From Pseudomonas sp. PDM18 (GTDB lineage: Bacteria; Pseudomonadota; Gammaproteobacteria; Pseudomonadales; Pseudomonadaceae): DNA of 64,000 nucleotides. The stretch spans positions 248,001 to 312,000 of the forward strand of contig NZ_JACVBX010000007.1 in NCBI RefSeq assembly GCF_014852585.1, written 5' to 3'. Below the pieces are notes generated by a model. The model was given only the letters and a program-made list of their open reading frames with translations, searched no databases and was not told the DNA's origin. The position numbers and the translations under genes are program-made. Of this stretch, positions 1-14,722 are shown piece after piece; position 1 is the stretch's first letter, and each line of letters starts with the position of its first letter.

Positions 1-37
1 AGCAGGCTGCCCAGCTGGATCAGGCCGCGCTACGCGA

Positions 38-481
38 TCAGGAGTGAGCGTCGCCCGTCTCGCCGTACAGGCCGAGTTCCGCAATGGCCAGCAGGGCGCA
101 GCGCTCGTCGTTGTCCGAGGTATCGCCGCTGACGCCGATGGCGCCCAGCAGCCGGCCTTCGTCATCGCGCAGGAGAATGCCGCCGGCCACCGGAATCACC
201 TCGCCACCAGTGAGGCTGTTGATCGCATCGAAGAACGCTGGCATGGCCTGGGCGCGGCGCGCCAGTTCGCGGCCGCCGAAGCCCATGCCCAGGCAGCCGC
301 GCGCCTTGCCGGTGGCGATCTGCGGGCGGAGGAAGCTGGCCTGCTCGTCACGCAGCACGGCCAGCGGGTGACCGGCCGCATCCAGCACGGCGGCGGCCAG
401 CGGACGCACGCCCTCGGCGCGGGCGTGACGCAGGGTGGCGGCAGCCAGGCGCGCGGCCAGTTCGAAGTCGAGATCGGTCAT
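38..481 (-). CDS. GlcG/HbpS-like (DUF336) protein
   Basis: A 147-residue protein of the GlcG/HbpS family, small proteins found beside many catabolic genes; some members bind haem or degradation products of it. The family look is in the Ala-rich helix at the N-terminus, a VLDAAGHPLAVLRDE strand pair, and the C-terminal Gly-rich EVIPVAGGILLRDDEGRLLGAIGVSG segment. I start at the ATG at 481 because GGAG lies 9 nt upstream; a longer start at 496 would overlap the amidohydrolase and has no ribosome site. It lies 2 nt after the amidohydrolase stop, so the two are probably co-transcribed. A second family member is at 52804. The true role is unknown. Confidence 0.85.
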   Translation of the reverse strand: MTDLDFELAARLAAATLRHARAEGVRPLAAAVLDAAGHPLAVLRDEQASFLRPQIATGKARGCLGMGFGGRELARRAQAMPAFFDAINSLTGGEVIPVAGGILLRDDEGRLLGAIGVSGDTSDNDERCALLAIAELGLYGETGDAHS

Positions 482-483
482 GT

Positions 484-1827
484 TCACTGGCTCCATTTAC
501 CCAGTTGGGCGACGCGGTCGCGGGTATAGAGGTCGGTCCATTTCAGCGAGTTGAAGTCAGATACCTGCTTGGGGTTATAGGCGGTGCGTTGCAGGCGTAC
601 CGGCTCGCCGGCCTTGTACACGGCCTGCAGGCGGTTACGGTCTTGAAGAATGCGGATGTCTTCCAGCGGCGAGCCGTCGAGGATCAGCAGGTCGGCCTGC
701 TTGCCCGTCTCCAGGGTGCCGAGGGTTTCGCCGCGGGGCATCAGGCGCGAGCCGACATTGGTGGCGGCATAGAGCGCTTCGGCGGGGGTGAAGTCCAGCC
801 GGCGCACCAGTAGTTCCAGCTCGCGGGCGTGCCATTCGCCGTAGGGTGTCACGGCGAAACCGCTGTCGCTCCCGCAGGCGAAGGGGACGCCGGCGGCCTT
901 GGCGCGCTTGAGTACCGGCGTGCCCAGTTCCAGGGTGCGCGCACAGTAGCCGGCGTAGCCGGTGGCGATGGCCGGGTCGTGGGGCTGGCAGAAGTCCACG
1001 GTGTTCTGTGGGAGGGTCATGGTCGGCGCGAGCACGCTGCCGGCTTCGAGCAGCGCCTCGATACAGGCGTCGTCCATGTAGAAGGCGTGGAAGACCAGGT
1101 CGACGCCGGCCTTGGCCGCGTACATGACTGCTTCACGGCCGTAGGCGTGGGTCGCCACGCGGCAGCCCAGGCGATGGGCTTCCTCGACCATCTCGCGGGT
1201 TTCGTCGGCGGTGAAGGCGGCGATGATCTCGCCATTGGGCCGGCGGTGCGTGCCGTCCATGGCGATCTTGATCAGGTCGACGCCGTCCTTGGCCTGCTTG
1301 CGGATTTGGGCGATGGCCTCGGTGCGGCTGGTGACCAGTGCGGCGGTGAAGTATTCCGGTGCGCCGACGCGGCTGGGGAACCAGTCGTTGAGGCTCTGCC
1401 GGTTGGTGATCACGCGGCTGCTGGCGGCGATGCGCGGGCCCTCGAAGAGCCCGGCGTTGACCGTGTTGCGCACGGCGATGCTGAGCTGGCCGCTGTCGCC
1501 GGGACAGACCATGGAGGTGACGCCGGCGGCGAGCACGTGCTGGGCGAAGAACAACCCGCGCAGGGCGCGGAATTCGTCGCTGGTCCAGATATCGATGTCT
1601 TCCTCGCTCTGGGCGTTACCGAAGGCCAGGTGGGTGTGCACGTCGACCAGCCCCGGCATGACGAAGTCGCCGTGGACTTCGCGGTCCCTCGCTGCCGGGC
1701 GCGGCGCCTCGGCCGTCGGCCCGACGTGGCGGATCACGCCGTTCTCGATGATCAGTGTCTGTTGCTGGCGCGTTTCCAGGCCGGTGCCATCGAACAGGGT
1801 GGAGCAGTGCAGGTGCAGGGCGCCCAT
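484..1827 (-). CDS. Amidohydrolase family protein (imidazolonepropionase/prolidase-like)
   Basis: A 447-residue metal-dependent hydrolase of the amidohydrolase superfamily, acting on a C-N or related bond of an unidentified substrate in the cytoplasm. The binuclear metal site is complete: H64-T-H66 after strand 1, K187 (the residue that is carboxylated in this family), H227, H247 and D321 in CGSDSG. A C-terminal small beta domain ends the chain. There is no signal peptide. The ribosome site GAGGAG lies 9 nt before the ATG, and an AACAACAA motif lies further upstream. It is followed at once by the GlcG-like gene and is transcribed away from the SnoaL-like gene. Placement at the edge of the catabolic island suggests it removes a side chain or opens a ring product; this is inference. 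Confidence 0.88.
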   Translation of the reverse strand: MGALHLHCSTLFDGTGLETRQQQTLIIENGVIRHVGPTAEAPRPAARDREVHGDFVMPGLVDVHTHLAFGNAQSEEDIDIWTSDEFRALRGLFFAQHVLAAGVTSMVCPGDSGQLSIAVRNTVNAGLFEGPRIAASSRVITNRQSLNDWFPSRVGAPEYFTAALVTSRTEAIAQIRKQAKDGVDLIKIAMDGTHRRPNGEIIAAFTADETREMVEEAHRLGCRVATHAYGREAVMYAAKAGVDLVFHAFYMDDACIEALLEAGSVLAPTMTLPQNTVDFCQPHDPAIATGYAGYCARTLELGTPVLKRAKAAGVPFACGSDSGFAVTPYGEWHARELELLVRRLDFTPAEALYAATNVGSRLMPRGETLGTLETGKQADLLILDGSPLEDIRILQDRNRLQAVYKAGEPVRLQRTAYNPKQVSDFNSLKWTDLYTRDRVAQLGKWSQ

Positions 1828-1853: not shown

Positions 1854-1900
1854 TGCCGGCAGGCTAGGGCGGGCGTGCCGGCCGGCACCATCAGATATGG

Positions 1901-1918
1901 TCGATGGGCACCCATCGA
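1901..1918. promoter_or_regulatory. Palindrome in divergent promoter region
   Basis: Perfect inverted repeat TCGATGGG-CA-CCCATCGA with 8-bp arms, placed 74 bp upstream of the amidohydrolase start and 172 bp upstream of the SnoaL-like gene. A further TCGAT lies at about 1923. It looks like a dimer operator, but the regulator is not known. Confidence 0.45.
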
Positions 1919-1986
1919 TGCCGTCGATACCTGGCGCAGGCCACGTGTTTCCTGCGCTTCATAGGAGGATGCGATGCTGCAGGACG

Positions 1987-2032
1987 GGTATCGGGAGTGG
2001 CGATGCCTGGCATGGCGATCGGCGATTTTTCC
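1987..2032 (+). promoter_or_regulatory. Shared LysR-type operator, copy 4
   Basis: This 46-bp element aligns without gaps to the one at 5074-5119 (33 of 46 bases identical). It contains ATCG-N7-CGAT at 1990-2004, which is a symmetric T-N11-A LysR box. It ends 57 bp before the start of the SnoaL-like gene and faces it. Confidence 0.65.
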
Positions 2033-2089
2033 TGCGGCCGTGGCGAGGGCGAGGATGCGCCCGCCCATCAATCACCAAGGGAAAATCCC

Positions 2090-2470
2090 ATGAAGGCTAT
2101 TCGTGATCTGTTGCTGAACCTGGAAGCCGAACGCCAGCGCGCCCTGGTCGAGGAGGACCACACGCGGCTGGACGAACTGTTCGCCGATGAGTTGCTGTAT
2201 GTGCACACCACCGGGCTGGTGCAGGACAAGGCGCAGTACCTGGACTATGCCCGCCACGCCGTGCGCTACCTGGCGGTGGAGCGTGGCGAGCTGGCGGTTC
2301 GTCTGTTCGGCGATGGACTGGCGCTGATGAGCGGCCCGCAGTGCAACCTGCTGCAGAAGCGCGGCGGCGGCGAGCCGGTGCGTGCCGAGGGTTTTGCCAC
2401 GCAGCTCTGGGTGAAGAGCGAGGAGGGGTGGCGCATCGCGTCGTTCCATGGCACCCGCGCGCCGGCCTGA
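2090..2470 (+). CDS. SnoaL-like / NTF2 superfamily protein (DUF4440-like)
   Basis: A 126-residue protein with the cone-shaped NTF2-like fold used by small hydratases, isomerases and cyclases acting on hydrophobic substrates. The pattern is typical: N-terminal helix, DELFADELLYVHTTG where the pocket begins, then paired strands ending in LWVKSEEGWRIASFHGT. I use the ATG at 2090, which has AAGGGAA 7 nt upstream; earlier in-frame starts lack a ribosome site. It stands alone, with one of the four shared LysR operators just upstream, so it likely belongs to the same regulon as the hydrolase, VOC and hydroxylase genes. Whether it is an enzyme or a binding protein cannot be told. Confidence 0.75.
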   Translation: MKAIRDLLLNLEAERQRALVEEDHTRLDELFADELLYVHTTGLVQDKAQYLDYARHAVRYLAVERGELAVRLFGDGLALMSGPQCNLLQKRGGGEPVRAEGFATQLWVKSEEGWRIASFHGTRAPA

Positions 2471-2512
2471 CCTGAACCTACGAAGAACACCCGTCGCCGG
2501 CGTCGTAGCGAA

Positions 2513-2561
2513 CCTGCAGGAGCGGGCCATGCCCGCGATCGCGCCCTTGGGGCGCTCCTGC
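2513..2561. repeat. REP-like palindrome
   Basis: Nested inverted repeats: outer arms GCAGGAGCG (2516-2524) and CGCTCCTGC (2553-2561), inner GCGGGC-cat-GCCCGC. The GGAGCGGGC...GCCCGCGATCGC pattern is typical of Pseudomonas REP sequences. It sits between the convergent SnoaL-like and alpha/beta hydrolase genes. Confidence 0.6.
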
Positions 2562-2576
2562 CGGGGAGCGAGCAGC

Positions 2577-2602
2577 AAGAAAACGGCGCCAACGGGCGCC
2601 GT
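2577..2602 (-). terminator. Rho-independent terminator of the alpha/beta hydrolase
   Basis: Stem ACGGCGCC/GGCGCCGT (8 bp, 4-nt loop) at 2583-2602. On the minus strand it is followed by TTTTCTT, so it terminates transcription coming from the hydrolase at 2658. Confidence 0.7.
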
Positions 2603-2657
2603 GGAGGGCGGGGCGACGCCCCGCAGGAGCAGCGCCGGGTGACCGGCGCAAGGGATT

Positions 2658-3815
2658 TCAGGCAGTGCGGCCGCCGAGGGTTTCGGCGATCCAGTCGGCG
2701 ATGTAATGACCGGCGTTGATGCTGTTGTCGAAGCTCGAATGCTGCACGCCGCCTTCGCGCTCGGTGAAGATCTTCAGCTCGCGTTTCGGGCTGTTCACCA
2801 GCTGTTCGTAAGTGCGATGCGCCCATTTCAGCGGAATCTGCGAGTCCTTCTCGCCGTGGGTGACCAGGAAGGGCACGCGGATGCGGTCCAGCACGCCATC
2901 CAGGTGCACGTTCTCGGCGATGGCCATGAACTCGTCCATGTCCTTCGCGCCCCAGACCCACTGCACGTGCGCCCAATAGTGCGGCACCGGGAAGTTGCCT
3001 TCCTTCTCCAGGCGGCGCTTCTGCACGTCGCGCCAGTCGTGGTTGGCGCCCCACACCACACCGCAGGCGAAGCGCGGCTCGAAGGCCACTGCGCGCGGGC
3101 AGTAGTAGCCGCCCAGGGAGACGCCCTCCAGGCCGATGCGCTTGGGGTCGACTTCGGGGTGGGTTTCCAGCCAGTCCACCACGCGGCTCGCCCAGTGCTC
3201 GCTGTCGTAGCGCGCGGTCAGGCCGTGCAGGCGCAACGCCTCGCCGGTGCCGGGCTGGTCGATGATCAGCGAGGACACGCCGCGCCTGGCCAGCCAGGCC
3301 GGCAGGCCGACGCGGTATTTCATTTCCTTGGTCGAATCCAGGCCGTTGACTTGCACCAGCAGCGGCGCCGGGCCGTCGACGCCCTCAGCGCGCACCAGCA
3401 GGCCGGAGAGGTGCTTGCCCTCATAGGGGATTTCCACCCGCTCGCAGTTTTCCTTCGACAGGTCGATGCCGCGCGCGAAGGTTTCCAGGAAGCGCTGGTA
3501 CAACGCCGCGCGGCCGGGAGCGCCGTGGGCCTGCAGGCGTTCGCAGGTGAGGTAGTAGGTGGCGGCGCGGTTGTATTTCTCGCCGGCGGAGAGGCGGCGG
3601 CCGGCGGCTTCGTCTTCCTCGGCGAGGCCGCAGAGCTTGTCGGCCATCTTCGCCCAGGTTTCGCGGAAAGCCTGGGTGCCGGCGGCATCGGGCTGTTTGG
3701 CGGCCTCCTGCAGAGGGGCGCACATTTCCTCGATCTCGCCCAGACGGGCGCCCATCTCGATGGCCAGGTCCACCGAGAGATTCCAGACGTAATTGGTGGG
3801 GAAGTAACGGAACAT
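2658..3815 (-). CDS. Alpha/beta hydrolase (FrsA / 2,6-dihydroxypseudooxynicotine hydrolase-like)
   Basis: A 385-residue hydrolase with a helical N-terminal cap (about residues 1-130) and an alpha/beta core. The catalytic triad is visible: S233 in GVSLG, D324 in HGEKDSQIP and H359 in GGVQHSSFD. Size and layout resemble the DHPON hydrolase group, which cleaves C-C bonds of acylated aromatic rings; other relatives are esterases. There is no signal peptide. The ATG has AAGGA 8 nt upstream, and an AAGAAGAA motif overlaps the start. A shared LysR operator lies 100-145 bp upstream. Next to a ring-cleavage-type protein, a C-C hydrolase acting on a side chain or cleavage product is plausible but unproven. 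Confidence 0.82.
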   Translation of the reverse strand: MFRYFPTNYVWNLSVDLAIEMGARLGEIEEMCAPLQEAAKQPDAAGTQAFRETWAKMADKLCGLAEEDEAAGRRLSAGEKYNRAATYYLTCERLQAHGAPGRAALYQRFLETFARGIDLSKENCERVEIPYEGKHLSGLLVRAEGVDGPAPLLVQVNGLDSTKEMKYRVGLPAWLARRGVSSLIIDQPGTGEALRLHGLTARYDSEHWASRVVDWLETHPEVDPKRIGLEGVSLGGYYCPRAVAFEPRFACGVVWGANHDWRDVQKRRLEKEGNFPVPHYWAHVQWVWGAKDMDEFMAIAENVHLDGVLDRIRVPFLVTHGEKDSQIPLKWAHRTYEQLVNSPKRELKIFTEREGGVQHSSFDNSINAGHYIADWIAETLGGRTA

Positions 3816-3822
3816 TCTTCTT
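3815..3822 (-). promoter_or_regulatory. Candidate Hfq/Crc target at start codon
   Basis: Minus strand AAGAAGAA overlaps the A of the ATG of the alpha/beta hydrolase, directly after its AAGGA ribosome site. Exact AAnAAnAA match in the position where Hfq/Crc would block initiation. Confidence 0.45.
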
Positions 3823-3914
3823 GTCCTTCTGCGGTCGTTGAGTCCGGCGCCCGGAAACAGCGGCAGGCACGCAGGGCGCGGTTCGAAGGCAAGGTACGCA
3901 GGCGGGCAGGGGCG

Positions 3915-3960
3915 GGGCCAATCGCGAGTGGGGATGCGAGGTATCGTGAAACGCGATGCC
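3915..3960 (-). promoter_or_regulatory. Shared LysR-type operator, copy 1
   Basis: Read in the direction of the alpha/beta hydrolase, this element matches the one before the VOC gene at 39 of 46 positions, with 24 consecutive identical bases (3918-3941). It carries the T-N11-A dyad ATCG-N7-CGAT at 3943-3957. The interval 3816-4014 has no other gene. Confidence 0.75.
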
Positions 3961-4014
3961 CCGGCGCCGTTGCGGCGGCCGGGGCGATGGCGACTGCTCA
4001 GCGCGGTGAAGTGC

Positions 4015-4953
4015 TCAGGCGCTGGCGCGCAGGGCTTCCGGTTGCTGGTCGACGCTCTGGATGAAGGCGCGGATGCGCTCGCGCAACCAGCGGTGCATGG
4101 GGTCGCCCTCCATGCTGCGGTGCCAGAGCATGAATTCGCGCATCACCGGGATCTTCACCGGCGGCGGCAGGATGCGCAGCGGCAGGTAGCGCGCGTACAG
4201 CTCGGCCAGACGCCGATGCATGGTCGCCACGCGCTGGGTGCCGACCAGCAGTTGCGGCAGGGTGTTGAAGTCGTTGGTGATCACTTCCAGGCGACGGTTG
4301 AAGCCGTACTGGTTCATGAACCAGTCCTCGATGCTCAGGTGCCGGTTGCGCCCGAAGCCCACCGAGATGTGGCCCATCTGCATGTACTGCTCCAGGGTCA
4401 GGGAGTCGCCGACCGCGGGGTTGTCGCGCCAGACCACGCAGACGTGGTCCTCCTCGAACAGCAGCTGCGCCGGGTGGCCGTCGATGATGTAGCGCTCGGG
4501 CACGATCATCATGTCCACCTCGCCGCGCATCAGCAGCTCGGCGCTGTTGTCGCCGGGGCTGACCATCTCGAAGGTGATGTGCGGCGCCTCCTGGTGGATT
4601 TTCTGGATCACCTGGGCGAACAGCACGCTGATCAGGTAATCCGAGGTCACCAGGCGGAAGTGGCGCTTGCTGGTGGAGGGGTCGAACACCGGTTTGGCGG
4701 TGATCGAGGAACGGATGGTCAGCAGCACCTCGCGCACCGGGTTGGCCAGCTCCAGGGCGTAGGGCGTGGGCTGCATCTTGCGCCCGACCTGCACCAGCAG
4801 TTCGTCCTCGAAGAAGGTGCGCAGGCGCCCCAGTACGCCGCTGGTGGCCGACTGGGTCATGTGCAGGCGTTCGGCGGCGCGGGTGATGTTCTGCTCTTCG
4901 AGCAGTACATCCAGCGCCACCAGCAGATTCAGGTCCAGGTGGTGAAAACGCAT
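4015..4953 (-). CDS. LysR-type transcriptional regulator (NahR/NodD-like branch)
   Basis: A 312-residue LysR regulator. The N-terminal winged helix-turn-helix spans about residues 1-65 (HDLNLL-ALDVLLEEQNITRAAERLHMTQSATSG) and the rest is the periplasmic-binding-like effector domain. The helix-turn-helix wording is that of the NahR/LinR/NodD branch, whose members respond to aromatic or phenolic inducers. It lies between the alpha/beta hydrolase and the divergent VOC gene. The four dyad elements at 1987, 3915, 5074 and 6528 are the best candidates for its binding sites. A GGTATCGCGA half element at 4985-4994, about 30 bp before its own start, could serve autoregulation; that is weak. Confidence 0.92.
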   Translation of the reverse strand: MRFHHLDLNLLVALDVLLEEQNITRAAERLHMTQSATSGVLGRLRTFFEDELLVQVGRKMQPTPYALELANPVREVLLTIRSSITAKPVFDPSTSKRHFRLVTSDYLISVLFAQVIQKIHQEAPHITFEMVSPGDNSAELLMRGEVDMMIVPERYIIDGHPAQLLFEEDHVCVVWRDNPAVGDSLTLEQYMQMGHISVGFGRNRHLSIEDWFMNQYGFNRRLEVITNDFNTLPQLLVGTQRVATMHRRLAELYARYLPLRILPPPVKIPVMREFMLWHRSMEGDPMHRWLRERIRAFIQSVDQQPEALRASA

Positions 4954-5073
4954 GGCGATGGCTCACGGTTCTTGTAGTTATTTTCGCGATACCTTCCCGC
5001 TGCATTCCCGCTACGTCAATACCACTTCGCCATCGCTGTGCGGCTAACGCCCCGTGTCATGGGCTGCCGGGCA

Positions 5074-5119
5074 GGTATCGCGATTGCCGATGCCTCGCAT
5101 CCCCACTCGCGATTGGTCA
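5074..5119 (+). promoter_or_regulatory. Shared LysR-type operator, copy 2
   Basis: Reference copy of the 46-bp element. The T-N11-A dyad ATCG-N7-CGAT lies at 5077-5091, followed by TCGCAT and a second CGAT at 5110-5113. It lies between the divergent LysR and VOC genes, 116-161 bp before the VOC start. Confidence 0.75.
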
Positions 5120-5234
5120 GGGCGCCGGGCGAGCCATCAACCTGCGCTCCAGTCGAGCGGCCGACGAGCCGCGGCGACCCACCACCGGCGACCCGCTGCC
5201 CGGCGCCGAACATAATTTCAATGGAGTGGTAGCC

Positions 5235-6176
5235 ATGAACATTCTTGGACTCGACGCGCTGGTATTCGGCGTCGACGATATCCAGGCCTGTGCCGATTGC
5301 CTGCGTGACTACGGCCTCACGGCCGCCCAACTGGATGCCGACGGAGGCCGCTTCGAGGCGCTGGACGGCACCGCGATCATCATTCGCCGTGGCGATGATC
5401 CGAGCCTGCCGCCGGCGCTCGGGCCGACCCCGTCATTGCGCGAGACCGTCTACGGAGTGGCGTCCACCGCGGACCTGGAAGCCATCGCCGACGAGCTGGG
5501 ACGTGACCGCGAGGTGCGCCGCGACGAGAACGGCGCGCTGCACAGCGTCGACGACCTGGGCTTCGCCATTGCCTTCCAGGTGTCCTGGCGTCGCGTCTTC
5601 GAGGCGCCGGCCGACCTGACCAACGCCCCGGGCAGTGCGCCGCAGCGTCCGCTCAACCAGCTGGGCATCACCCCGGACATGCCAGCATTGCCGCGCTCGT
5701 TGTCCCATGTCGTTTACTTCGTGCCCGACGCGGTCAAGGGCGAAGCCTTCTACCGCGACCGCCTGGGCTTCGTCACCACCGACAGCTTCGTCGGCGTCGG
5801 CCCCTTCATGCGCAGCGCTGGCATGGACGACCACCATTGCCTGTTCATGATCCAGACCCCGCGTCACATGCAGGGCTGCGAACACTTCACCTTCCACATG
5901 GGCAGCGGCACCGAAGTGCTGCTGGCCGGCACGCGCTTCCAGCAGAAGGGCTGGACCAGCTTCTGGGGCCCCGGCCGCCACCTGCTGGGATCCAACTGGT
6001 TCTGGTACTTCAACAGCCCACTGGGCTGCCACATCGAGTACGACGCCGACATGGACAAGCACGACGACGCCTGGGCCGCACGCCAGGCGCCGATGTCGGC
6101 GGACAACTCGCAGCTGTTCCTCTTCACCTCGCGGGAGAAATGGGCGCCCAGCGGCCCGCCGCCCAAGCAGGGCTGA
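5235..6176 (+). CDS. Two-domain VOC / extradiol dioxygenase-like protein
   Basis: A 313-residue protein with two vicinal-oxygen-chelate modules (about 1-125 and 155-290), the layout of type I extradiol ring-cleavage dioxygenases. Candidate iron ligands in the second module are H158 (LSHVVYFV), H217 or H221 (CEHFTFHMG) and E268 (CHIEYD), with spacing close to the BphC family. Start ATG at 5235 has GGAG 8 nt upstream. A Rieske gene follows after 3 nt. A shared LysR operator lies upstream. Cleavage of a dihydroxylated ring is the natural reading, but VOC proteins also include isomerases and hydrolases. Confidence 0.83.
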   Translation: MNILGLDALVFGVDDIQACADCLRDYGLTAAQLDADGGRFEALDGTAIIIRRGDDPSLPPALGPTPSLRETVYGVASTADLEAIADELGRDREVRRDENGALHSVDDLGFAIAFQVSWRRVFEAPADLTNAPGSAPQRPLNQLGITPDMPALPRSLSHVVYFVPDAVKGEAFYRDRLGFVTTDSFVGVGPFMRSAGMDDHHCLFMIQTPRHMQGCEHFTFHMGSGTEVLLAGTRFQQKGWTSFWGPGRHLLGSNWFWYFNSPLGCHIEYDADMDKHDDAWAARQAPMSADNSQLFLFTSREKWAPSGPPPKQG

Positions 6177-6179
6177 GCC

Positions 6180-6527
6180 GTGGATTGCGTGGCGCTGTGC
6201 CGGCTCGATGAGCTGGGCGAGGGGCAGTCGCGCGGCTTCGACCCGCAGGGCAGGGGAGCGGACAGCCTGTTCGCTCTCCGTCACCAGGGTCAGGTGCGCG
6301 TGTACCGCAATCGCTGCCCGCATCTGTCGGTGCCTCTGGAGTACCGCAAGAACCGCTTCCTCAGCGCCGATGGCCAGTGGGTCATCTGCTACGCCCACGG
6401 CGCGCGCTTCCGCCCGGAGGACGGCACCTGCGTGCACGGCCCCTGTCGCGGGGAAGTTTTGCCGGCGCTGCAACACCGCGAGGCGGACGGTTGGCTGCTA
6501 TTGCCGCTGGCGCAACTGGACGCCTGA
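6180..6527 (+). CDS. Rieske [2Fe-2S] ferredoxin-like protein
   Basis: A 115-residue single-domain Rieske protein. The cluster ligands are C46-P-H48 and C70-Y-A-H73, with 21 residues between the boxes as in Rieske ferredoxins. The start is GTG, 3 nt after the VOC stop, so translation is probably coupled. No ring-hydroxylating oxygenase alpha subunit and no ferredoxin reductase is present in the window. It may therefore donate electrons to an unlinked oxygenase, or keep the iron of the neighbouring VOC dioxygenase reduced, as ferredoxins such as XylT do in other extradiol pathways. The second idea is inference. Confidence 0.85.
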   Translation: MDCVALCRLDELGEGQSRGFDPQGRGADSLFALRHQGQVRVYRNRCPHLSVPLEYRKNRFLSADGQWVICYAHGARFRPEDGTCVHGPCRGEVLPALQHREADGWLLLPLAQLDA

Positions 6528-6573
6528 GGTATCGCGCCGCGCGATAGGTCGCATCCGCGGACTCGATTAGTCA
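6528..6573 (+). promoter_or_regulatory. Shared LysR-type operator, copy 3
   Basis: Aligns without gaps to 5074-5119 at 32 of 46 positions and keeps the dyad ATCG-N7-CGAT (6531-6545), the TCGCAT block and the second CGAT. It begins directly after the Rieske stop codon and lies 95-140 bp before the FAD hydroxylase. Confidence 0.65.
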
Positions 6574-6641
6574 AAGCCCGGCCCCGCCGGGAAGCTGTGC
6601 CCCGGGCACGCAGAACGGCCGCCGCGCAGGACGTGGCGGAC

Positions 6642-6667: not shown

Positions 6668-7792
6668 ATGAATACTGTGAGCAACGTGCTGATCGTGGGT
6701 GGTGGGATTGGTGGGCTGTGCGCCGCCATCGCCCTGCGCCGCAAGGGAGTCGCGGTCGATCTGGTCGAGCTGAAGACCGAATGGACGGTCTACGGCGTCG
6801 GCATCATCCAGCAGAGCAACGTGGTGCGCGAGATGCACCGCCTCGGCCTGCTCGACGCCTACCTGGATGCGGCCTACGCCTTCGAGGACGTGGCCATCTA
6901 CACCACGCAGGGCGAGCAACTGGCGCGCATTCCCGGCCAGCGCCTGGCCGGCCCGCAGTACCCGGCCAACGTCGGCATCTCCCGTCGCGCCCTGCACAAG
7001 GTGCTGAGCGAGACCGCCATCGAGCTGGGCACCCAGGTGCGCCTGGGCACCTCGGTGGAAAGCCTCGAGCAGGACGCCAGCGGCGTCGACGTGCTGTTCA
7101 GCGATGGCAGCCAGGGGCGCTACGCGCTGGTGGTGGGTGCCGACGGCCTGTTCTCCAGGGTGCGCGGCCTGCTCTTTGGCGATAAGTACCAGCCGCACTT
7201 CACCGGCCAGTCGGTGTGGCGCCACAACTTCCCGCGCGCCGCTGGCATCGATCACCTGGCCAACTACCAGGGCCCGGCGGGCAACGCCGGCCTGGTGCCG
7301 CTGGCCGATGACCTGATGTACCTCTTCACCACCTCCCACGAACCGGGCAATCCGTGGATGGACCCAGCCAGCCTCGCCGAGGGCCTGCGCCAGCGCCTGG
7401 CCGGTTTCGGCGGGCTGATCGGCGAGCTGCGCGGGCAGATCGGCGACAGCGCCGAGGTCGTCTACAAGCCGCTGGAAGCGGTGTTCGTCGACGAACCCTG
7501 GTACCGCGGCCGCGTGTTGCTGATCGGCGACGCCGCCCACGCCACCACACCGCACCTGGGCCAGGGCGCCGGCATGGCCATCGAGGACGCCGTGGTGCTG
7601 GCAGAGGAACTCACCGCTGGCGGCGATCTGGAAGACCAGCTTCAGCGCTTCATGGGCCGCCGCTTCGAGCGCTGCAGGTTCATCAGCGAGATGTCCCTGC
7701 TGGCCGGCGAGAAGGAGATCCAGCGCGATCCGTCCTTCGACCGCATCGGCCTTGTCAAGCAGATGCTGGAGGTCACCGCGCGCCCCATCTGA
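6668..7792 (+). CDS. FAD-dependent aromatic hydroxylase-like monooxygenase
   Basis: A 374-residue group A flavoprotein monooxygenase (PHBH/salicylate hydroxylase superfamily), which uses NAD(P)H and O2 to hydroxylate phenolic rings. Visible marks are the FAD GGGIGG motif at residues 11-16, the GADG motif near residue 158 that contacts FAD and NAD(P)H, and GDAAHATTPHLGQGAG near residue 285. I use the ATG at 6668; a GTG at 6656 is in frame but has no better ribosome site. It stands behind its own copy of the shared LysR operator and heads the long transport and enzyme run. Together with the VOC protein it suggests hydroxylation followed by ring opening. Confidence 0.88.
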   Translation: MNTVSNVLIVGGGIGGLCAAIALRRKGVAVDLVELKTEWTVYGVGIIQQSNVVREMHRLGLLDAYLDAAYAFEDVAIYTTQGEQLARIPGQRLAGPQYPANVGISRRALHKVLSETAIELGTQVRLGTSVESLEQDASGVDVLFSDGSQGRYALVVGADGLFSRVRGLLFGDKYQPHFTGQSVWRHNFPRAAGIDHLANYQGPAGNAGLVPLADDLMYLFTTSHEPGNPWMDPASLAEGLRQRLAGFGGLIGELRGQIGDSAEVVYKPLEAVFVDEPWYRGRVLLIGDAAHATTPHLGQGAGMAIEDAVVLAEELTAGGDLEDQLQRFMGRRFERCRFISEMSLLAGEKEIQRDPSFDRIGLVKQMLEVTARPI

Positions 7793-7882: not shown

Positions 7883-9553
7883 ATGTTGACTCGCACGCGT
7901 GCAACCGCGCGGCCGCTGCCGCCGCTCAAGCCCATTACCCTGGCTCTTCTCGCGCTGGCCGCCAGCCACGCCCAGGCCTTCGAATTCGACACCGGCAACC
8001 CCGACCTGCGGGCGCGCTGGGACAACACCCTGAAGTACAGCGCCGCCTGGCGCACACAGGACCCGAGCAGCAAGCTCACCGAAGGCCAGACCGCGCTGAA
8101 CCTCGACGACGGCGACCGCAACTTCGACAAGGGCCTGATCTCCAACCGCCTGGACCTGCTCTCCGAGCTGGACATCACCTACGGCAACGTCGGTGCGCGG
8201 GTCAGCGGCGCGGCCTGGTACGACGACGTCTACAACCGCGGCACCGATAACAACGCCCCCGGCCGCGCCAACAGCTACTCGGTGGACTACGACGAGTTCA
8301 CCGACGACACCCGCACTCTCCACGGGCGCAAGGGCGAGCTGCTGGATGCCTTCGTCTTCGGCAAGACCGAGATCGGCGAGATGCCGGTGTCCGGCCGCCT
8401 GGGCCGCTACGCCATGCAGTGGGGCGAGAGCCTGTTCTACGGCATGAACGGCATCGCCGGCGGCATGGCACCGGTCGACGTGGTCAAGGGCCTGTCGGTG
8501 CCCAACACCCAGTTCAAGGAACTGATCCGCCCAGTACAGCAGGTCTCCGGCCAGCTGCAGCTGACCCCGGACGTGTCCCTGGGCGCCTATTACCAGTTCG
8601 AGTGGGAAGCCAACCGCCTGCCCGCTGCCGGCAGTTACTTCTCCAATGACGACTTCTTCGGCGACGGCGGCGAGCGCATGTTCGTCGGCACACCGGTGAT
8701 GCCCGGCGGCCAGCCGCTGGCCTTCTACCGCGGCAACGACAAGGAGGCCAAGGATTCGGGGCAGGGCGGCGTGCAACTGCGCTGGCGCACCGAGACGGTG
8801 GACTGGGGCGTCTACGCCATCCGCTTCCACGACAAGAGCCCGCAGCTCAACGTGCGCCCGGACTTCGCCAACCTCAACCCGGTGACCGGCAAGGCCGGCG
8901 AGTACTACTGGGTCTATCCCGAAGGCATTGAGGCGCTGGGGGCGAGCTTCTCCACCACCCTGGGCAACTTCAACGTGGCGGGCGAGCTGTCCACCCGCTG
9001 GAACCAGCCGTTGGCCTCCACCAGCCAGCACGCCCTGGCGCCGGGCGAGGCAATCGACAACGACGACGACCCGGTCTATGCCACCGGCCGCACGCTGCAT
9101 GCCAACTTCTCCTGGCTGGCGAGCCTGGAGCCGAACTTCGTCGCCGCCGAGTCGAGCTTCCTCGGCGAGATCGCCTGGAACCGGGTGATGAGCGTGAGCC
9201 AGAACGCCGATGCGGTCGACCCCAACGCCGACCGCGACGCCACCAGCCTGCGCCTGGTGTTCGAGCCGATGTACCGGCAGATCTACCCCGGCTTAGACCT
9301 CTCGGTACCCATCGGCGCGAGCTACACCAACGGCGCCTCCGAGGCGCTGGGCACTGGCTTCGGCACCGACCACGGCGGCGACCTGAACATCGGCCTGAAG
9401 GGCAACTACCTCAACACCTGGAACCTGGGCCTGACCTACACGCACTACTACGGCCCGGAGAACACCTTCCTCGACGCCGACAATCACTACACCTACGAAC
9501 AGTCGCTGAAAGACCGCGACTTCATCGCCTTCACCGTCAGCCGCACCTTCTGA
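7883..9553 (+). CDS. DUF1302 outer-membrane protein
   Basis: A 556-residue DUF1302 family protein. An N-terminal signal peptide ends near ASHAQA (residue about 33). The mature part is rich in alternating strands and aromatic residues, ending in a C-terminal Phe (VSRTF), as outer-membrane barrels do. Members are usually paired with DUF1329 and sit in operons for hydrophobic substrates such as aromatics, terpenes or steroids. Here it is followed 14 nt later by DUF1329 and then by a YCF48 protein and an RND transporter. The likely job is passage of the substrate or product across the outer membrane; this is inferred from context. Confidence 0.88.
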   Translation: MLTRTRATARPLPPLKPITLALLALAASHAQAFEFDTGNPDLRARWDNTLKYSAAWRTQDPSSKLTEGQTALNLDDGDRNFDKGLISNRLDLLSELDITYGNVGARVSGAAWYDDVYNRGTDNNAPGRANSYSVDYDEFTDDTRTLHGRKGELLDAFVFGKTEIGEMPVSGRLGRYAMQWGESLFYGMNGIAGGMAPVDVVKGLSVPNTQFKELIRPVQQVSGQLQLTPDVSLGAYYQFEWEANRLPAAGSYFSNDDFFGDGGERMFVGTPVMPGGQPLAFYRGNDKEAKDSGQGGVQLRWRTETVDWGVYAIRFHDKSPQLNVRPDFANLNPVTGKAGEYYWVYPEGIEALGASFSTTLGNFNVAGELSTRWNQPLASTSQHALAPGEAIDNDDDPVYATGRTLHANFSWLASLEPNFVAAESSFLGEIAWNRVMSVSQNADAVDPNADRDATSLRLVFEPMYRQIYPGLDLSVPIGASYTNGASEALGTGFGTDHGGDLNIGLKGNYLNTWNLGLTYTHYYGPENTFLDADNHYTYEQSLKDRDFIAFTVSRTF

Positions 9554-9567
9554 CCGAGGACTGCCCG

Positions 9568-10935
9568 ATGAAACACAACAAGAAAGTCGTTTCCCTGCTC
9601 ACCGCCTTGAGTGCCTCCCTGCTGTTCGCCCATGGCGCCTCTGGCGCCGTCTCCGCCGAGGAGGCGGGCAAACTGAGAACCACCCTGACCCCGCTGGGCG
9701 GCGAGCGTGCCGGCAATGCCGACGGCAGCATCCCGGCCTGGACCGGTGGCTACACCCAGGTCGACCCGGCCTACAAGGACGGCGGCAAACGCGGCGATCC
9801 CTTCGCCAGCGAAAAGCCGCAGCTGACCATCACCGCGCAGAACATGGCGCAGTATGCCGACAAGCTGACCCCCGGCATCCAGGCGATGCTGAAGAAGTAC
9901 CCGGACAGCTACCGACTGGAGGTCTACCCGACCCACCGCAGCGCCGCCGCGCCGCAGTCGGTGTACGACGCCACCTTCGCCAACGCCACCAGTGGCAAGC
10001 TGGTGGACGGCCCCGGCGGGCCGATGCCCGAAGGCGCCGCCGGGGGCATTCCGTTCCCGATCCCGGCCAACGGCGTGGAAGCCATGTGGAACCACCTGCT
10101 GCGCTGGCGCGGCGCCTCCTGGCACGCGAGCTTCAACCAGTACCTGACCACCGCCGACGGCAAGCATGTGCTGACCAACGACTCCCGCGCCGACCTGCAG
10201 ATGCCCTGGTACCTGCCGGGCGGCAGCGGCGAGAAGGGCGTGTTCTGGTCGATTCGCATGACCAACGACGGCCCGCCGCTGCGCGCCGGCGAAGCCATCA
10301 CCGGCCTGGAAAACCTCAACGCCGACAAGGCTGCGGTGTGGACCTACCTGCCCGGTCAGCGTCGCGTGCGTCGCCTGCCCAACGCCTGCTGCGACACCCC
10401 GACGCCGGCTACTGCCGGGGTCATGAGCTTCGACGAGCTGTACGTGTTCAACGGCCGCGTCGACCGCTTCGACTGGAAGCTGGTGGGCAAGAAGGAGATG
10501 TACATCCCCTACAACGTCAACAAGGTCTTCACCGCCGAAAACGGCGAGGCGCTGCTCGATGCGCACCACCTGAAGTCCGACGCCATTCGCTGGGAGCTGC
10601 ACCGCGTCTGGGTGGTGGAAGCGAGCCTGAAGAGCGGCCAGCGCCACGTCATGCCCAAGAGCACCTACTACCTCGACGAAGACACCTGGGCCGCCGTGCT
10701 CGGCGAGCGCTACGACGCGCGCAACCAGCTGGCCAAGGTGGTCTGGACCTCGCCGGTGGTACTGCCCGACCTGCCCGGCGTGGTGACCCTCACCAACGGC
10801 TTCTACGACCTGCTCTCCGGGGCCTGGTTCGCCGGGGACCTGTTCGCCGGCAAGAGCGAGCAGTACCGCATCGTGCCGCCCTACAAGGACTCGGTGTTCA
10901 CCGCCGACGCCATGGCGGGTGAGGGCGTGCGCTGA
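9568..10935 (+). CDS. DUF1329 periplasmic protein
   Basis: A 455-residue DUF1329 family protein with a signal peptide (residues 1 to about 28, ending near GASGAVSAEEA). The family is predicted to have a lipoprotein-carrier-like beta fold and almost always accompanies a DUF1302 barrel. Codons 4-6 hold an AACAAGAA motif (9577-9584), so the catabolite-repression signal lies inside the start of the gene. It is the second gene of the envelope set. A periplasmic shuttle between the barrel and the RND pump is a reasonable guess with no direct proof. Confidence 0.87.
   Translation: MKHNKKVVSLLTALSASLLFAHGASGAVSAEEAGKLRTTLTPLGGERAGNADGSIPAWTGGYTQVDPAYKDGGKRGDPFASEKPQLTITAQNMAQYADKLTPGIQAMLKKYPDSYRLEVYPTHRSAAAPQSVYDATFANATSGKLVDGPGGPMPEGAAGGIPFPIPANGVEAMWNHLLRWRGASWHASFNQYLTTADGKHVLTNDSRADLQMPWYLPGGSGEKGVFWSIRMTNDGPPLRAGEAITGLENLNADKAAVWTYLPGQRRVRRLPNACCDTPTPATAGVMSFDELYVFNGRVDRFDWKLVGKKEMYIPYNVNKVFTAENGEALLDAHHLKSDAIRWELHRVWVVEASLKSGQRHVMPKSTYYLDEDTWAAVLGERYDARNQLAKVVWTSPVVLPDLPGVVTLTNGFYDLLSGAWFAGDLFAGKSEQYRIVPPYKDSVFTADAMAGEGVR
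9577..9584 (+). promoter_or_regulatory. Candidate Hfq/Crc target inside DUF1329 start
   Basis: AACAAGAA at codons 4-6 of DUF1329, exact AAnAAnAA match within the ribosome footprint. Confidence 0.4.
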
Positions 10936-11028: not shown

Positions 11029-11040
11029 AGGTTGCGTGCG

Positions 11041-12102
11041 ATGAAGAAGAGTCTCTCCGCCTGGCTGCTGGCAGCCTGTTGCGCGGTGCCTGCGGCGTTC
11101 GCCGATGGCAGCGTGGATGTCCTGGCGCAGCCCGCCGTGCATGGCCCGCAGGCCCTGCGCGCGGTGCTGCAGGATGTGGCCCGCGCTGGCGAGCGTCTGG
11201 TGGCAGTGGGGGAGCGTGGCGTGGTGCTGCTCTCCGACGACAACGGCACTACCTGGCGCCAGGCCACGGCAGTGCCGGTGAGCGCCGGCCTGACTGCCGT
11301 ACAGTTCATCGATGCGCAGAGTGGCTGGGCCATCGGCCACGCCGGCGTGGTGCTGCACAGCGAGGACGGCGGCGAGCACTGGACCCTGCAACTCGATGGC
11401 AAGCGTGGCGCTGCCCTGGAGCAGCAGGCCGCCGAAGCTTCCGGTGACGCTGCGCGCGTCGCTGCCGCGCAAAGGTTGGTGGCCGACGGCGCCGACAAAC
11501 CGCTGCTGGCGCTGAGCTTCGCCGATACCCGCCACGGTCTGGTGGTCGGTGCTTACGGCGTGGCGCTGAGCACTGCCGATGGCGGTCGCAGCTGGCAGTC
11601 CGCGATGGGCCGGCTGCCGAACCAGCGTGGTCTTCACCTGTACGCCCTGGCCCGCGCCGGCAGTGACCTGTACGTCGCCGGTGAGCAAGGCCTGCTGCTG
11701 CGTTCCCGCGATGACGGCGCGCACTTCGACGCCCTGCAGAGCCCCTACGACGGCAGCTACTTCGCCGCCGCCGTGCTCCCCAGTGGGCGCCTGCTGATTG
11801 GTGGTCTGCGCGGCACCCTGTTCGCTTCCGACGATGCCGGCGAAAGCTTCCAGCCGCTGGCCAATCCGATCCCCGCATCGATCAACGGCATCCGCGTCGC
11901 CGGCGGCCAGCTGCTGCTCGCCAACCAGGCCGGGATGCTGCTGCGCGGCGGCCTGGACGCCTTCGCTGCGCAGCCGCTACCGGTCTCCGACGGCTTGCCG
12001 CTGGCCGCGGCGATCACAGCTGCCGACGGTGCCATCGTCTCCGTCGGCATGGCCGGTGCGCGCCGCCTGGCGCCTTCTTCCCAACCCCTTCGCGCGGACT
12101 GA
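11041..12102 (+). CDS. YCF48-like beta-propeller protein
   Basis: A 353-residue exported protein with a signal peptide (cleavage near AAFADG). It contains repeated YCF48/BNR-type blades, for example GVVLLSDDNGTTWRQA, GVVLHSEDGGEHWTLQ, GVALSTADGGRSWQSA and GLLLRSRDDGAHF. YCF48 proteins assist photosystem II assembly in plants; in proteobacteria they commonly lie right before an RND/MMPL transporter, as here (3 nt gap). The likely role is a periplasmic partner of that pump. ATG at 11041 is chosen over an upstream TTG because of the AAAGG site. Confidence 0.85.
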   Translation: MKKSLSAWLLAACCAVPAAFADGSVDVLAQPAVHGPQALRAVLQDVARAGERLVAVGERGVVLLSDDNGTTWRQATAVPVSAGLTAVQFIDAQSGWAIGHAGVVLHSEDGGEHWTLQLDGKRGAALEQQAAEASGDAARVAAAQRLVADGADKPLLALSFADTRHGLVVGAYGVALSTADGGRSWQSAMGRLPNQRGLHLYALARAGSDLYVAGEQGLLLRSRDDGAHFDALQSPYDGSYFAAAVLPSGRLLIGGLRGTLFASDDAGESFQPLANPIPASINGIRVAGGQLLLANQAGMLLRGGLDAFAAQPLPVSDGLPLAAAITAADGAIVSVGMAGARRLAPSSQPLRAD

Positions 12103-12105
12103 GCC

Positions 12106-14592
12106 ATGCACGCCACGACTTCCCCTGAGCCGTCCAGCGGCCGCCTCGACGACTTCGACAGTGCTTCCGGCTCGCTGCTGGAACGCGCGCTGTTCAACCA
12201 CCGCGCCCTGGTCCTACTGCTGTGCCTGGCGGCGACCCTGCTGCTGGGCTGGCAGGCCACCCGCCTGACGCTCAACGCCAGCTTCGAGAAGATGATCCCG
12301 CGCGAGCACCCCTTCATCCACAACTACCTGGAACACCGCCAGGAGCTGGCCGGGCTGGGCAACGCCGTGCGCATCGCCGTGGCCAACCCGCGCGGCAGCC
12401 TCTACGACAAGGACTACCTGCACAGCCTGCAGCAGCTCAACGATGCGGTGTATCTGCTCCCCGGCGTCGACCGTGCGGCGATGAAGTCGCTGTGGACGCC
12501 CTCGACCCGCTGGACCGGTGTGACCGAGGACGGCCTCGAAGGCGGCCCGGTGATTCCAGACGGCTACGATGGCAGCCTCGCGAAACTTGAAGAACTCAAG
12601 CGCAACGTCGAGCGCTCCAACGAGATCGGCCAGCTGGTGGCCTTCGACCAGCGCTCGAGCATCGTCTACGTGCCGCTGCTGGAGAAGACCCCGGACGGTC
12701 AGGCGCTGGACTACACGGCCTTCGCCCATGAGCTGGAAAGCCTGCGCGCGCGCTTCCAGGGGCAGGGCGTGGACATCCGCATCACCGGCTTCGCCAAGGT
12801 GGTGGGCGACCTGATCGACGGGCTGAAGCAGATCCTGCTGTTCTTCGCCGCCGCCATCGCTATCACCGCCGCGGTGCTCTACTGGTACACCCGCTGCGTG
12901 CGCAGCACCGCGCTGGTGGTGATCTGCTCGCTGGTGGCGGTGGTCTGGCAACTCGGCCTGCTGCCGCTGCTGGGTTACGAGCTGGACCCGTACTCGGTGC
13001 TGGTGCCGTTCCTGGTGTTCGCCATCGGCATGAGCCACGGCGCGCAGAAGATGAACGGCATCATGCAGGACATCGGCCGCGGCATGCATCGCCTGGTGGC
13101 GGCGCGCTTCACCTTCCGCCGGCTGTTCCTCGCCGGGCTCACCGCGCTGCTTTGTGACGCCGTGGGTTTCGCCGTGCTGATGATCATCCGTATCCAGGTG
13201 ATCCAGGACCTGGCGGTGATCGCCAGCCTGGGCGTGGCGGTGCTGATCTTCACCAACCTGATCCTGCTGCCGGTGCTGCTCTCCTACGTGGGCGTCAGTG
13301 CCCGCGCGGCGCGCCGCAGCCTGCGCGCCGAAGAGGCCGAGGCGAGCGGGGCGGACAAGCACGCCATGTGGCGCTTCCTCGACCTGTTCACCCGGCGCCG
13401 CTGGGCCGCCGCGTGCATCGCCGTGGCCGCGCTGATGGCCGCTGGCGGCTACGCGGTGAGCCTGCACCTGAAGGTCGGCGACCTCGATGCCGGCGCCCCC
13501 GAGCTGCGCCCGGACTCGCGCTACAACCGCGACAATGCCTTCGTCACTGCCCACTACGGCGCCAGCAGCGACGTCTTTGCTGTGATGGTGCAGACCCCGC
13601 CCGGCGCCTGCTCGGCCTACGACACCCTCAAGCGCGTGGATGACCTGGACTGGCAACTGCGTGGCCTGCTGGGAGTGGACTCGACCAACTCGCTGGCGCT
13701 GCTCAACCGCCGTGTTCTGGTGGGCCTCTCCGAAGGCAGCCCGAAGTGGTACGAGCTGGTGAACAACCAGGCGACCCTGAACATGGTCACCGCCAACGCG
13801 CCCCGTGGCCTGTACAACGACGATTGCAGCCTGCTGACGCTCTACGCCTACCTCACCGACCACAAGGCCGACACCCTCGCGCGCGTCGTGGACAGCGTGC
13901 AGGCCTTCGCCCACGACAACGACAGCGAGCAGGCGAAGTTCCTCCTCGCCGCCGGCAGCGCGGGTATCGAGGCGGCCACCAACCAGGTGGTGAAACAGGC
14001 CAATCGTGACATGCTCTGGTGGGTCTACGGCGCGGTCATCCTGCTCTGCCTGGTGACCTTCCGCTCTTGGCGTGCGGTGCTCTGCGCAGTGCTGCCGCTG
14101 GTGCTGACCTCGATCCTCTGCGAGGCGCTGATGGTGGCGCTGGGCATCGGCGTGAAGGTCGCGACCCTGCCGGTGATCGCTCTGGGCGTGGGCATCGGCG
14201 TGGACTACGCGCTCTACGTCATGAGCATCGTGCTGGCGCAGCTGCGCCAGGGCGCGAGTTTGTCCGAGGCGTATTACCGCGCGCTGCTGTTCACCGGCAA
14301 GGTGGTGATGCTCACCGGCGTGACCCTGGCCATCGGCGTCGGCACCTGGATCTTCTCGCCCATCAAGTTCCAGGCCGACATGGGCGTGCTGCTGGCCTTC
14401 ATGTTCGTCTGGAACATGGTCGGCGCGCTGATCCTGCTGCCGGCTCTGGCGTATTTCCTTTTGCCGCAGCGCCAGGCCCGCCTGGAGGCGCAACCGACTG
14501 TGGCGGCGCACCACCTGCAGGAAGTCCATCACGACCGCGACTGCTGCCAGCAGCACGCCGCCACGCCCCTGGCCTGCGGCCAGGCTCGCTGA
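12106..14592 (+). CDS. RND/MMPL family transporter
   Basis: An 828-residue inner-membrane transporter of the RND superfamily, MMPL type. It has the duplicated layout: one membrane helix near residue 35, a large periplasmic loop, a block of five helices (about residues 240-400), a second helix near 430, a second loop and a second block (about 640-805). The conserved sterol-sensing-like segments LGVGIGVDYALYVMSI and FAIGMSHGAQKMNGI are present. The C-terminal tail is cytoplasmic and His/Cys-rich. It follows the YCF48 gene by 3 nt. MMPL pumps move lipids or hydrophobic small molecules; the substrate here is unknown. Confidence 0.88.
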   Translation: MHATTSPEPSSGRLDDFDSASGSLLERALFNHRALVLLLCLAATLLLGWQATRLTLNASFEKMIPREHPFIHNYLEHRQELAGLGNAVRIAVANPRGSLYDKDYLHSLQQLNDAVYLLPGVDRAAMKSLWTPSTRWTGVTEDGLEGGPVIPDGYDGSLAKLEELKRNVERSNEIGQLVAFDQRSSIVYVPLLEKTPDGQALDYTAFAHELESLRARFQGQGVDIRITGFAKVVGDLIDGLKQILLFFAAAIAITAAVLYWYTRCVRSTALVVICSLVAVVWQLGLLPLLGYELDPYSVLVPFLVFAIGMSHGAQKMNGIMQDIGRGMHRLVAARFTFRRLFLAGLTALLCDAVGFAVLMIIRIQVIQDLAVIASLGVAVLIFTNLILLPVLLSYVGVSARAARRSLRAEEAEASGADKHAMWRFLDLFTRRRWAAACIAVAALMAAGGYAVSLHLKVGDLDAGAPELRPDSRYNRDNAFVTAHYGASSDVFAVMVQTPPGACSAYDTLKRVDDLDWQLRGLLGVDSTNSLALLNRRVLVGLSEGSPKWYELVNNQATLNMVTANAPRGLYNDDCSLLTLYAYLTDHKADTLARVVDSVQAFAHDNDSEQAKFLLAAGSAGIEAATNQVVKQANRDMLWWVYGAVILLCLVTFRSWRAVLCAVLPLVLTSILCEALMVALGIGVKVATLPVIALGVGIGVDYALYVMSIVLAQLRQGASLSEAYYRALLFTGKVVMLTGVTLAIGVGTWIFSPIKFQADMGVLLAFMFVWNMVGALILLPALAYFLLPQRQARLEAQPTVAAHHLQEVHHDRDCCQQHAATPLACGQAR

Positions 14593-14623: not shown

Positions 14624-14722
14624 ATGCCCTGCTTGAAGACCCTGTGGCGCGAACTGCGCGCCGGCCTGATCCAGTACGGCGCCACCCATTGCCTGCTGGT
14701 GGAGGTGCGCGATGAGCGCTGA
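14624..14722 (+). CDS. Small 32-codon ORF overlapping the MFS start
   Basis: An ATG with AGAGGA 8 nt upstream opens a 32-residue reading frame (MPCLKTLWRELRAGLIQY...) that ends 11 nt inside the MFS transporter gene. The MFS ATG itself has GGAGGTG upstream, which lies within this small frame. It could be a small amphipathic or membrane-associated protein or a coupling leader. No known family was recognised. The ribosome site and the overlap support translation; nothing else does. Confidence 0.5.
   Translation: MPCLKTLWRELRAGLIQYGATHCLLVEVRDER

Follow-up and report, generated by a model that had tools for sequence, protein, structure and literature searches.

A two-dyad, nod-box-type element at four promoters of a putative flavonoid-type catabolic cluster in Pseudomonas, with a NodD-like LysR gene among its copies

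The locus and its repeated element

We analysed a 64,000-nucleotide stretch of the genome of Pseudomonas sp. PDM18 (contig NZ_JACVBX010000007.1, positions 248,001 to 312,000; hereafter the window), the left part of which carries genes for an amidohydrolase (AmiH), a SnoaL/DUF4440 protein, an alpha/beta hydrolase (ABH), a LysR regulator (LysR1), a VOC dioxygenase, a Rieske protein and an FAD-dependent hydroxylase, followed by a same-strand gene run from DUF1302 to cyclase that extends to 19998 (Table 1). An earlier reading of this sequence (the original prediction) proposed that a 46-bp element is repeated here as a LysR-type operator at four promoters of a catabolic island. The system belongs to a known kind, the LysR regulons, and its form is notable: a NodD-like regulator and a clean operator of the nod-box type at a putative flavonoid-type catabolic cluster in Pseudomonas. 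The nod-box geometry, the NodD type of the regulator, the gene set resembling known fde and ifc clusters, a second LysR gene (LysR2) beyond the left edge of the window and a distinct dyad facing AmiH are additions to the original prediction.

All four copies occur exactly at the coordinates and on the strands first reported, and the ungapped identities of the other three to the copy at 5074 (33, 39 and 32 of 46) were reproduced exactly; 22 of the 46 columns are identical in all four copies when these are aligned without gaps. On both strands of the window, only these four sites reach 32/46, the runner-up 46-mer scoring 29. Every copy keeps ATCG-N7-CGAT and the second GCAT...CGAT block and faces a gene as described, with distances from the outer edge of the operator to the assumed start codon of 103 bp (SnoaL), 145 bp (hydrolase), 161 bp (VOC) and 140 bp (FAD hydroxylase); the LysR1 gene does lie in the middle of the copies, divergent from the VOC gene.

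A search of the whole genome (6,425,165 bases) with a whole-element pattern derived from the four window sites themselves, allowing up to three mismatches, returned the four reported sites and nothing else, all at this locus, where hundreds of equal matches would have spoken against an operator; the reversed control pattern gave 0 matches. The T-N11-A core named in the original prediction is present in all copies, but ATCG-N7-CGAT by itself is not diagnostic, with seven exact places in the window; at up to one mismatch, the one-dyad pattern gave 154 forward and 151 reverse matches in the genome (control, 23 and 21). The core dyad alone was thus ruled out as a genome-wide signature, being too common.

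The element as a whole consists of two ATC-N9-GAT dyads, offset by 22 bp from start to start, and ends in the VOC and FAD classes with a tail TTRGTC. The second dyad likewise reads ATC-N9-GAT in three window copies; the SnoaL copy has ATG-N9-GAT (one mismatch of 12), and a deviating tail, CGATTTTT. For scoring we used the template GGTATCG-N7-CGAT-N3-TCGCATCC-N7-CGATTNGTCA, with 28 specified positions.

Conservation of the operator

Operator conservation was investigated in the best 80 of 416 loci obtained with the VOC query, which together with the window gave 81 sequences; 72 loci titled Pseudomonas, one Pantoea locus (L012) and the window make up a Pseudomonas set of 74. A score of at least 20/28 within 420 bp upstream was found for 74 of 81 VOC promoters, the seven misses being the non-Pseudomonas loci L076-L082, so that the VOC operator is present throughout the Pseudomonas set (74/74, the window and 73 loci). 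The same threshold was reached by 64/68 FAD, 68/77 ABH and 21/23 SnoaL promoters, by 21/43 LysR2 promoters, and by 1/45 AmiH and 5/67 DUF1302 promoters; over both strands of the 81 sequences, 269 of 3,273,722 positions reach 20/28. A looser measure, seven of eight core matches, was dropped because coding sequence also reaches 7.

A template-free scan of the whole 420-bp upstream stretches (at most one mismatch of 12, spacings of 16-29 bp) revealed a dyad pair at 22 bp in 74/81 VOC, 64/68 FAD, 70/77 ABH and 20/23 SnoaL promoters, the runner-up spacings being 29 bp for VOC (5 promoters), 17 bp for FAD (11), 24 bp for ABH (20) and single cases for SnoaL (1). In gapless alignments of 72 VOC, 63 FAD and 66 ABH distinct promoters, operator columns averaged 1.56, 1.48 and 1.41 bits, respectively, compared with 0.40, 0.58 and 0.40 bits for the flanks; the rows were aligned on the operator and those scoring below 20 excluded, which favours the operator, and the VOC alignment lost no Pseudomonas row by score.

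Outside Pseudomonas, the element at 20/28 or better was found in none of the seven loci L076-L082 (best scores 17-19, with L077 at 19), nor in the Diaphorobacter plasmid cluster L142 (17). The Burkholderia anthina plasmid cluster L141 holds a 21/28 match adjoining a LysR gene, and degenerate relatives of the element may exist in such clusters. Four non-Pseudomonas fde-like clusters (L141:6722, L076:7571, L078:7152 and L079:7179) have, immediately before their LysR gene, a candidate ATC-N9-GAT pair with 18-bp spacing and one mismatch of 12; at almost the same position in L141 and L076, a 22-bp pair with two mismatches can be read as well, and it is there that the 21/28 match of L141 sits. Three Nitrospirillum loci (L126:1364, L080:17609 and L082:16752) carry a 23-bp pair with one mismatch upstream of a LysR1-like or hydrolase gene.

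Natural rearrangements show that the element moves with transcription units, as a trans-acting regulon requires. In genome G123, the operon from DUF1302 to the epimerase lies about 800 kb from LysR1 and has its own operator (28/28), while the ABH-VOC and FAD units adjoining LysR1 keep theirs (25 and 23 of 28); in G116, the element (23/28) precedes a displaced Rieske gene. Furthermore, the element stands before DUF1302 at precisely five loci, L028, L030, L037, L040 and L052, all of which are without the FAD gene.

LysR1 as the candidate regulator

The distribution of the operator was set against those of both LysR proteins across 148 genomes from the family of the window, presumably Pseudomonadaceae. 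The operator occurs in 14/148 genomes (control pattern, 0/148), and LysR1 orthologues (E <= 1e-110) occur in the same 14; these genomes cover three genus labels and are related, not independent events. Within the window's own genus, operator and LysR1 are both present in 7/18 genomes and both absent from the other 11. The similarity of the copies alone does not identify their binder, and they might represent a repeat dispersed in the genome, or a site for some unrelated factor, found in these promoters by chance. We regard this as very improbable, given that the genome holds no further copy, that the element co-occurs with LysR1 across the 148 genomes, and that all four copies face their gene with fixed spacing and a dyad of the LysR-type transcriptional regulator kind.

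LysR2 is the more serious candidate for a different binder. LysR1 and LysR2 each contain an HTH_1 and a LysR substrate-binding domain, and their helix-turn-helix regions read QSATSGVLGRLR and QSATSAALGRLR; a perfect 21-bp GGTATCG-N7-CGATACC palindrome (GGTATCGCGCGATGCGATACC, window -971 to -951) lies upstream of the LysR2 gene (L001:15029-16047), left of the window, and the full element stands in about half of the LysR2 promoters, as counted above. However, LysR2 orthologues (E <= 1e-90) were found in only 8 of the 14 operator genomes. In addition, 31 loci of the Pseudomonas set are without a LysR2 match; when the genomes of 20 of these were tested, 5 held a LysR2 of at least 60% identity elsewhere and 15 held nothing above 41%, the level of LysR1 itself, and the VOC promoters of all 15 keep the operator at 24-28 of 28. 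LysR1, in turn, was present in 9/9 genomes tested, including those of L022 and L042, which have no LysR1 between ABH and VOC.

Because of this co-occurrence with LysR1 and the retention of operators without LysR2, the VOC, ABH and FAD sites follow LysR1, and LysR2 as their sole regulator is rejected. The rejection does not extend to the SnoaL, AmiH and LysR2 sites: all 23 SnoaL loci carry both LysR1 and LysR2, so that co-occurrence does not separate the two proteins at the SnoaL promoter. That LysR2 is the main binder, or that both proteins share all sites with LysR1 as an accessory, we consider unlikely overall. LysR1 as the regulator of one regulon across separate transcription units, as originally proposed, is thus supported by the specificity of the element in the genome (4/4), its co-occurrence with LysR1 in 14/148 genomes, and the linkage of operator and unit after cluster splitting.

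Comparison with nod boxes and NodD

Nod boxes are described, in the part of the source available, as elements of about 47 bp with ATC-N9-GAT (PMC5596368). In Cupriavidus taiwanensis, we located a nod box in the interval separating nodB from the LysR gene and used it as a BLAST query; five of its matches were retrieved, from Sinorhizobium fredii, S. meliloti (a stretch without gene annotation), Rhizobium lentis, Paraburkholderia phymatum and S. terangae. With spacings of 16-29 bp scanned, all six nod boxes contain two dyads 22 bp apart, five of them without a mismatch. One of the six, L148, has two qualifying places, both at 22 bp, and its identities were computed with the place further from nodA; the six do not include L143 or L139.

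LysR1 shows 41.4% identity to R. lentis NodD1, 43.9% to R. jaguaris NodD2 and 43.8% to the LysR protein beside nodB in C. taiwanensis. A tree of 30 proteins has a separate clade for each of LysR1, NodD and LysR2, and these clades jointly, with some further matches, fall into a group supported at 96/96; the five NodD rows, two of them called NodD by position beside nodB, form a clade of their own (100/100) with LysR1 outside it. The outgroup branches of this tree are long and its root is unsure. By sequence, LysR1 is accordingly classed as NodD-like rather than as a NodD. Among the best-matching solved structures, the LysR entries 1uth and 2uyf, which we take to be DntR (NahR/DntR type), match LysR1 over its whole length, and two ligand-domain entries, 9x6w and 9iib, rank first.

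The Pseudomonas system thus shares with NodD and its nod boxes two ATC-N9-GAT dyads 22 bp apart and, as proposed here, several units under one LysR protein, but its element is 46 bp long and stands before catabolic rather than nodulation genes, which is why we term it nod-box-type and not a nod box. The single ATC-N9-GAT motif obtained by ChIP-seq for PSPPH2193, a Pseudomonas syringae regulator (PMC11957545), is comparable by description alone, the family not being named in the part of the source available; unlike the present element, it is one 15-bp dyad. No earlier description of this two-dyad element in Pseudomonas was found in a literature search that covered titles and abstract openings and mostly left subscription papers outside its scope, which is no proof of absence.

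Gene content and pathway

We compared the cluster with flavonoid and isoflavone catabolic clusters, the features of which were taken from two annotated plasmid clusters (L141 and L142) and from literature descriptions, here limited to the accessible parts of the papers. In Herbaspirillum, FdeE and FdeD hydroxylate naringenin at C8, and FdeR, NodD-like according to a cited title, activates the fde operon (PMC8552027, PMC10799723). In Variovorax, ifcA encodes an FAD monooxygenase and ifcB a glyoxalase with 65.8% identity to FdeC; further members of the ifc cluster are cupins (ifcD1, D2) and a hydrolase resembling 2,6-dihydroxypseudooxynicotine (DHPON) hydrolase; IfcA homologues have been noted in Pseudomonas (PMC11069340).

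As far as these descriptions go, the window resembles the naringenin-degrading fde operon of H. seropedicae in its NodD-like LysR regulator and in counterparts of the FAD monooxygenase FdeE, the Rieske protein FdeD and the dioxygenase FdeC, and the isoflavone-degrading ifc cluster in enzyme kinds: FAD monooxygenase, glyoxalase, DHPON-type hydrolase and cupins. The combined set of FAD hydroxylase, Rieske protein, VOC dioxygenase, DHPON-hydrolase-like protein, cupin and fumarylacetoacetate hydrolase (FAH) family protein is complete in the window cluster. The regulatory layout differs: fde is described with a single fdeR-fdeA intergenic region holding 14 potential T-N11-A boxes, of which nine are clustered, and with a footprint of 60 bp, whereas the Pseudomonas cluster has several separate promoters, each with one clean two-dyad element.

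Identities to the plasmid clusters of B. anthina and Diaphorobacter are 79-90% for ABH, 64-67% for VOC, 59-65% for FAH, 62-63% for the cyclase and 50-52% for the cupin; over the whole stretch from hydrolase to cyclase, genes with a match in these clusters are 39-90% identical, except for the SDR dehydrogenase in L141 (28%). The upper end belongs to ABH (window 2658-3815), which is 90% identical to L142:10824-11978 while the FAD hydroxylases of the same two clusters are only 41% identical; this suggests gene transfer or unusually strong constraint on ABH. A closer FAD hydroxylase, 67% identical to that of the window, lies beside a LysR1-like gene in Nitrospirillum (L127:2684-3760).

The substrate is predicted here from gene content, and it could be a different bicyclic or polyketide-like aromatic (e.g., a chromone, coumarin or phloroglucinol derivative) that LysR1 senses, with the pairing of operator and LysR1 unchanged. 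Substrate choice should lie with the FAD hydroxylase, one of the least similar genes, which has 40-44% identity to those of five fde/ifc-like clusters, leaving the exact flavonoid, or even the class, uncertain; furthermore, AmiH and HbpS have no match in L141 and L142 (E <= 1e-8). Against such a substrate stand the VOC, hydrolase, FAH, cyclase, cupin and epimerase genes held in common with these plasmid clusters at 46-90% identity, and the NodD-type regulator with nod-box geometry. We judge a non-flavonoid aromatic the less probable choice, though one to be taken seriously, and a flavonoid-type plant polyphenol the better supported one.

Table 1 Features of the locus (positions in the window).
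Feature	Position	Strand	Remark
LysR2 (second NodD-like LysR), 3' end	1..47	+	start at window -897 (G000:C63:247103); matched C63:247103-248044
HbpS-like protein	38..496	-	
Amidohydrolase (AmiH)	484..1827	-	
Dyad of different type, GGTATCG-N7-CGATGGG	1911..1931	-	faces amidohydrolase gene
Two-dyad operator	1987..2032	+	23/28 specified positions; upstream of SnoaL/DUF4440 gene
SnoaL/DUF4440 protein	2090..2470	+	
Alpha/beta hydrolase (ABH)	2658..3815	-	related to 2,6-dihydroxy-pseudo-oxynicotine hydrolase (2jbw, best structure match)
Two-dyad operator	3915..3960	-	25/28; upstream of ABH gene
LysR1, NodD-like LysR regulator	4015..4953	-	Pfam HTH_1 and LysR_substrate; 41-44% identity to NodD
Two-dyad operator	5074..5119	+	28/28; within LysR1-VOC divergent region
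VOC (extradiol-type) ring-cleavage dioxygenase	5235..6176	+	FdeC/IfcB-like by context
Rieske protein	6180..6527	+	FdeD-like by context
Two-dyad operator	6528..6573	+	28/28; upstream of FAD hydroxylase operon
Putative -35, TTAGTC	6567..6572	+	conserved tail of FAD operator
Putative weak -10, GAAGCT	6591..6596	+	operator positions 64-69; 2/6 match to TATAAT
FAD-dependent aromatic hydroxylase	6668..7792	+	FdeE/IfcA-like by context
DUF1302 protein	7883..9553	+	
DUF1329 protein	9568..10935	+	
YCF48/BNR protein	11032..12102	+	
MMPL/RND transporter	12106..14592	+	
MFS transporter	14712..15902	+	
SDR dehydrogenase	15899..16672	+	
Cupin protein	16684..17256	+	compare IfcD
Fumarylacetoacetate hydrolase (FAH) family protein	17253..18245	+	
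NAD-dependent epimerase/dehydratase	18236..19219	+	
Cyclase family protein	19216..19998	+	

Proposed mechanism and its weighing

The best-conserved hexamer downstream of the operator starts at operator position 64 (CAATCT for VOC, GAAGCT for FAD, TAACGT for ABH). With the tail at operator positions 40-45 taken as the -35 element, the spacer to this hexamer is 18 bp; dyad 1 would then fall near -65 and the second dyad near -43. LysR-family regulators are expected to have a recognition site and an activation site in such an arrangement.

We propose that LysR1 probably senses a flavonoid-type compound and acts through the nod-box-type operators on this flavonoid-type catabolic cluster. The repeated element would be the operator of LysR1. 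Its dyad 1, at about -65, would act as the high-affinity site and dyad 2, at about -43, as the activation site; the tail of dyad 2, TTRGTC, would supply the -35 element ahead of a weak putative -10 about 18 bp further. The dyad starts are 22 bp, or two helical turns, apart. A LysR1 tetramer would span both dyads and bend the DNA; binding of the ligand would shift LysR1 on dyad 2 and allow RNA polymerase to start. LysR1 would thereby co-activate three units (ABH, VOC-Rieske and FAD-to-cyclase) and probably that of SnoaL as well; the site in the divergent LysR1-VOC region would serve its autoregulation. Most likely, the pathway hydroxylates the A-ring of a flavonoid-type plant polyphenol and then cleaves it in extradiol fashion, with this polyphenol itself or an early intermediate as the inducer.

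Several observations weigh against this proposal. The loci, besides being the best 80 of 416, are related, so that their counts are not independent events, and the 28-position template was fixed after relatives had been inspected. The putative -10 hexamers match TATAAT at just 2-3 of 6 positions. One of the six operator genomes that have no close LysR2, G116, contains a LysR2-like gene of 47% identity next to an AmiH-like gene, a point in favour of LysR2 as binder. On the nod side, five of the six nod boxes had been picked by similarity to the first, base identity between operators and nod boxes is 20-27 of 49, and no dyad pair with up to two mismatches was found within 601 bp upstream of the nodA-like gene of S. 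americanum (L143). Six regulators of non-Pseudomonas fde-like clusters fall outside the group of LysR1, NodD and LysR2, and the flavonoid response of FdeR is therefore not directly transferable to LysR1. As to the pathway, the low identity of the FAD hydroxylase has been described above, and disruption of the Variovorax hydrolase gene was without effect on daidzein degradation, according to the accessible part of PMC11069340.

The locus offers a defined pseudomonad regulon with a specific operator, and by regulator, operator geometry and gene content it links the rhizobial nod switch to flavonoid-type catabolism, which makes the origin of NodD and the nod box testable by ordinary reporter and binding assays. 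A tentative idea, which we hold to be somewhat doubtful, is that one ancestral flavonoid-sensing pair of regulator and operator, its operator already having two ATC-N9-GAT dyads at 22 bp, gave rise both to NodD and the nod box and to LysR1 and its operator. This pair would have worked in flavonoid catabolism at first and been co-opted for nodulation later; if so, plant flavonoids would be sensed by LysR1, and either system might recognise the operators of the other. The natural, conserved promoters sharing one operator are also a possible sensor part.

Other dyads near the operators

The dyad facing AmiH was considered as a fifth operator copy and rejected, with 1/45 AmiH promoters reaching 20/28 and a consensus of its own. 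The AmiH promoter (window 1886-1931, minus strand) has its own conserved element, TATCGAcGccATCaATAC...CCATCGA...ATCTG, and is without the second dyad of the operator. A lone GGTATCG half-site at window 4987-4993 (minus strand), which precedes the start codon of LysR1 by 34-40 bp, is possibly autoregulatory.

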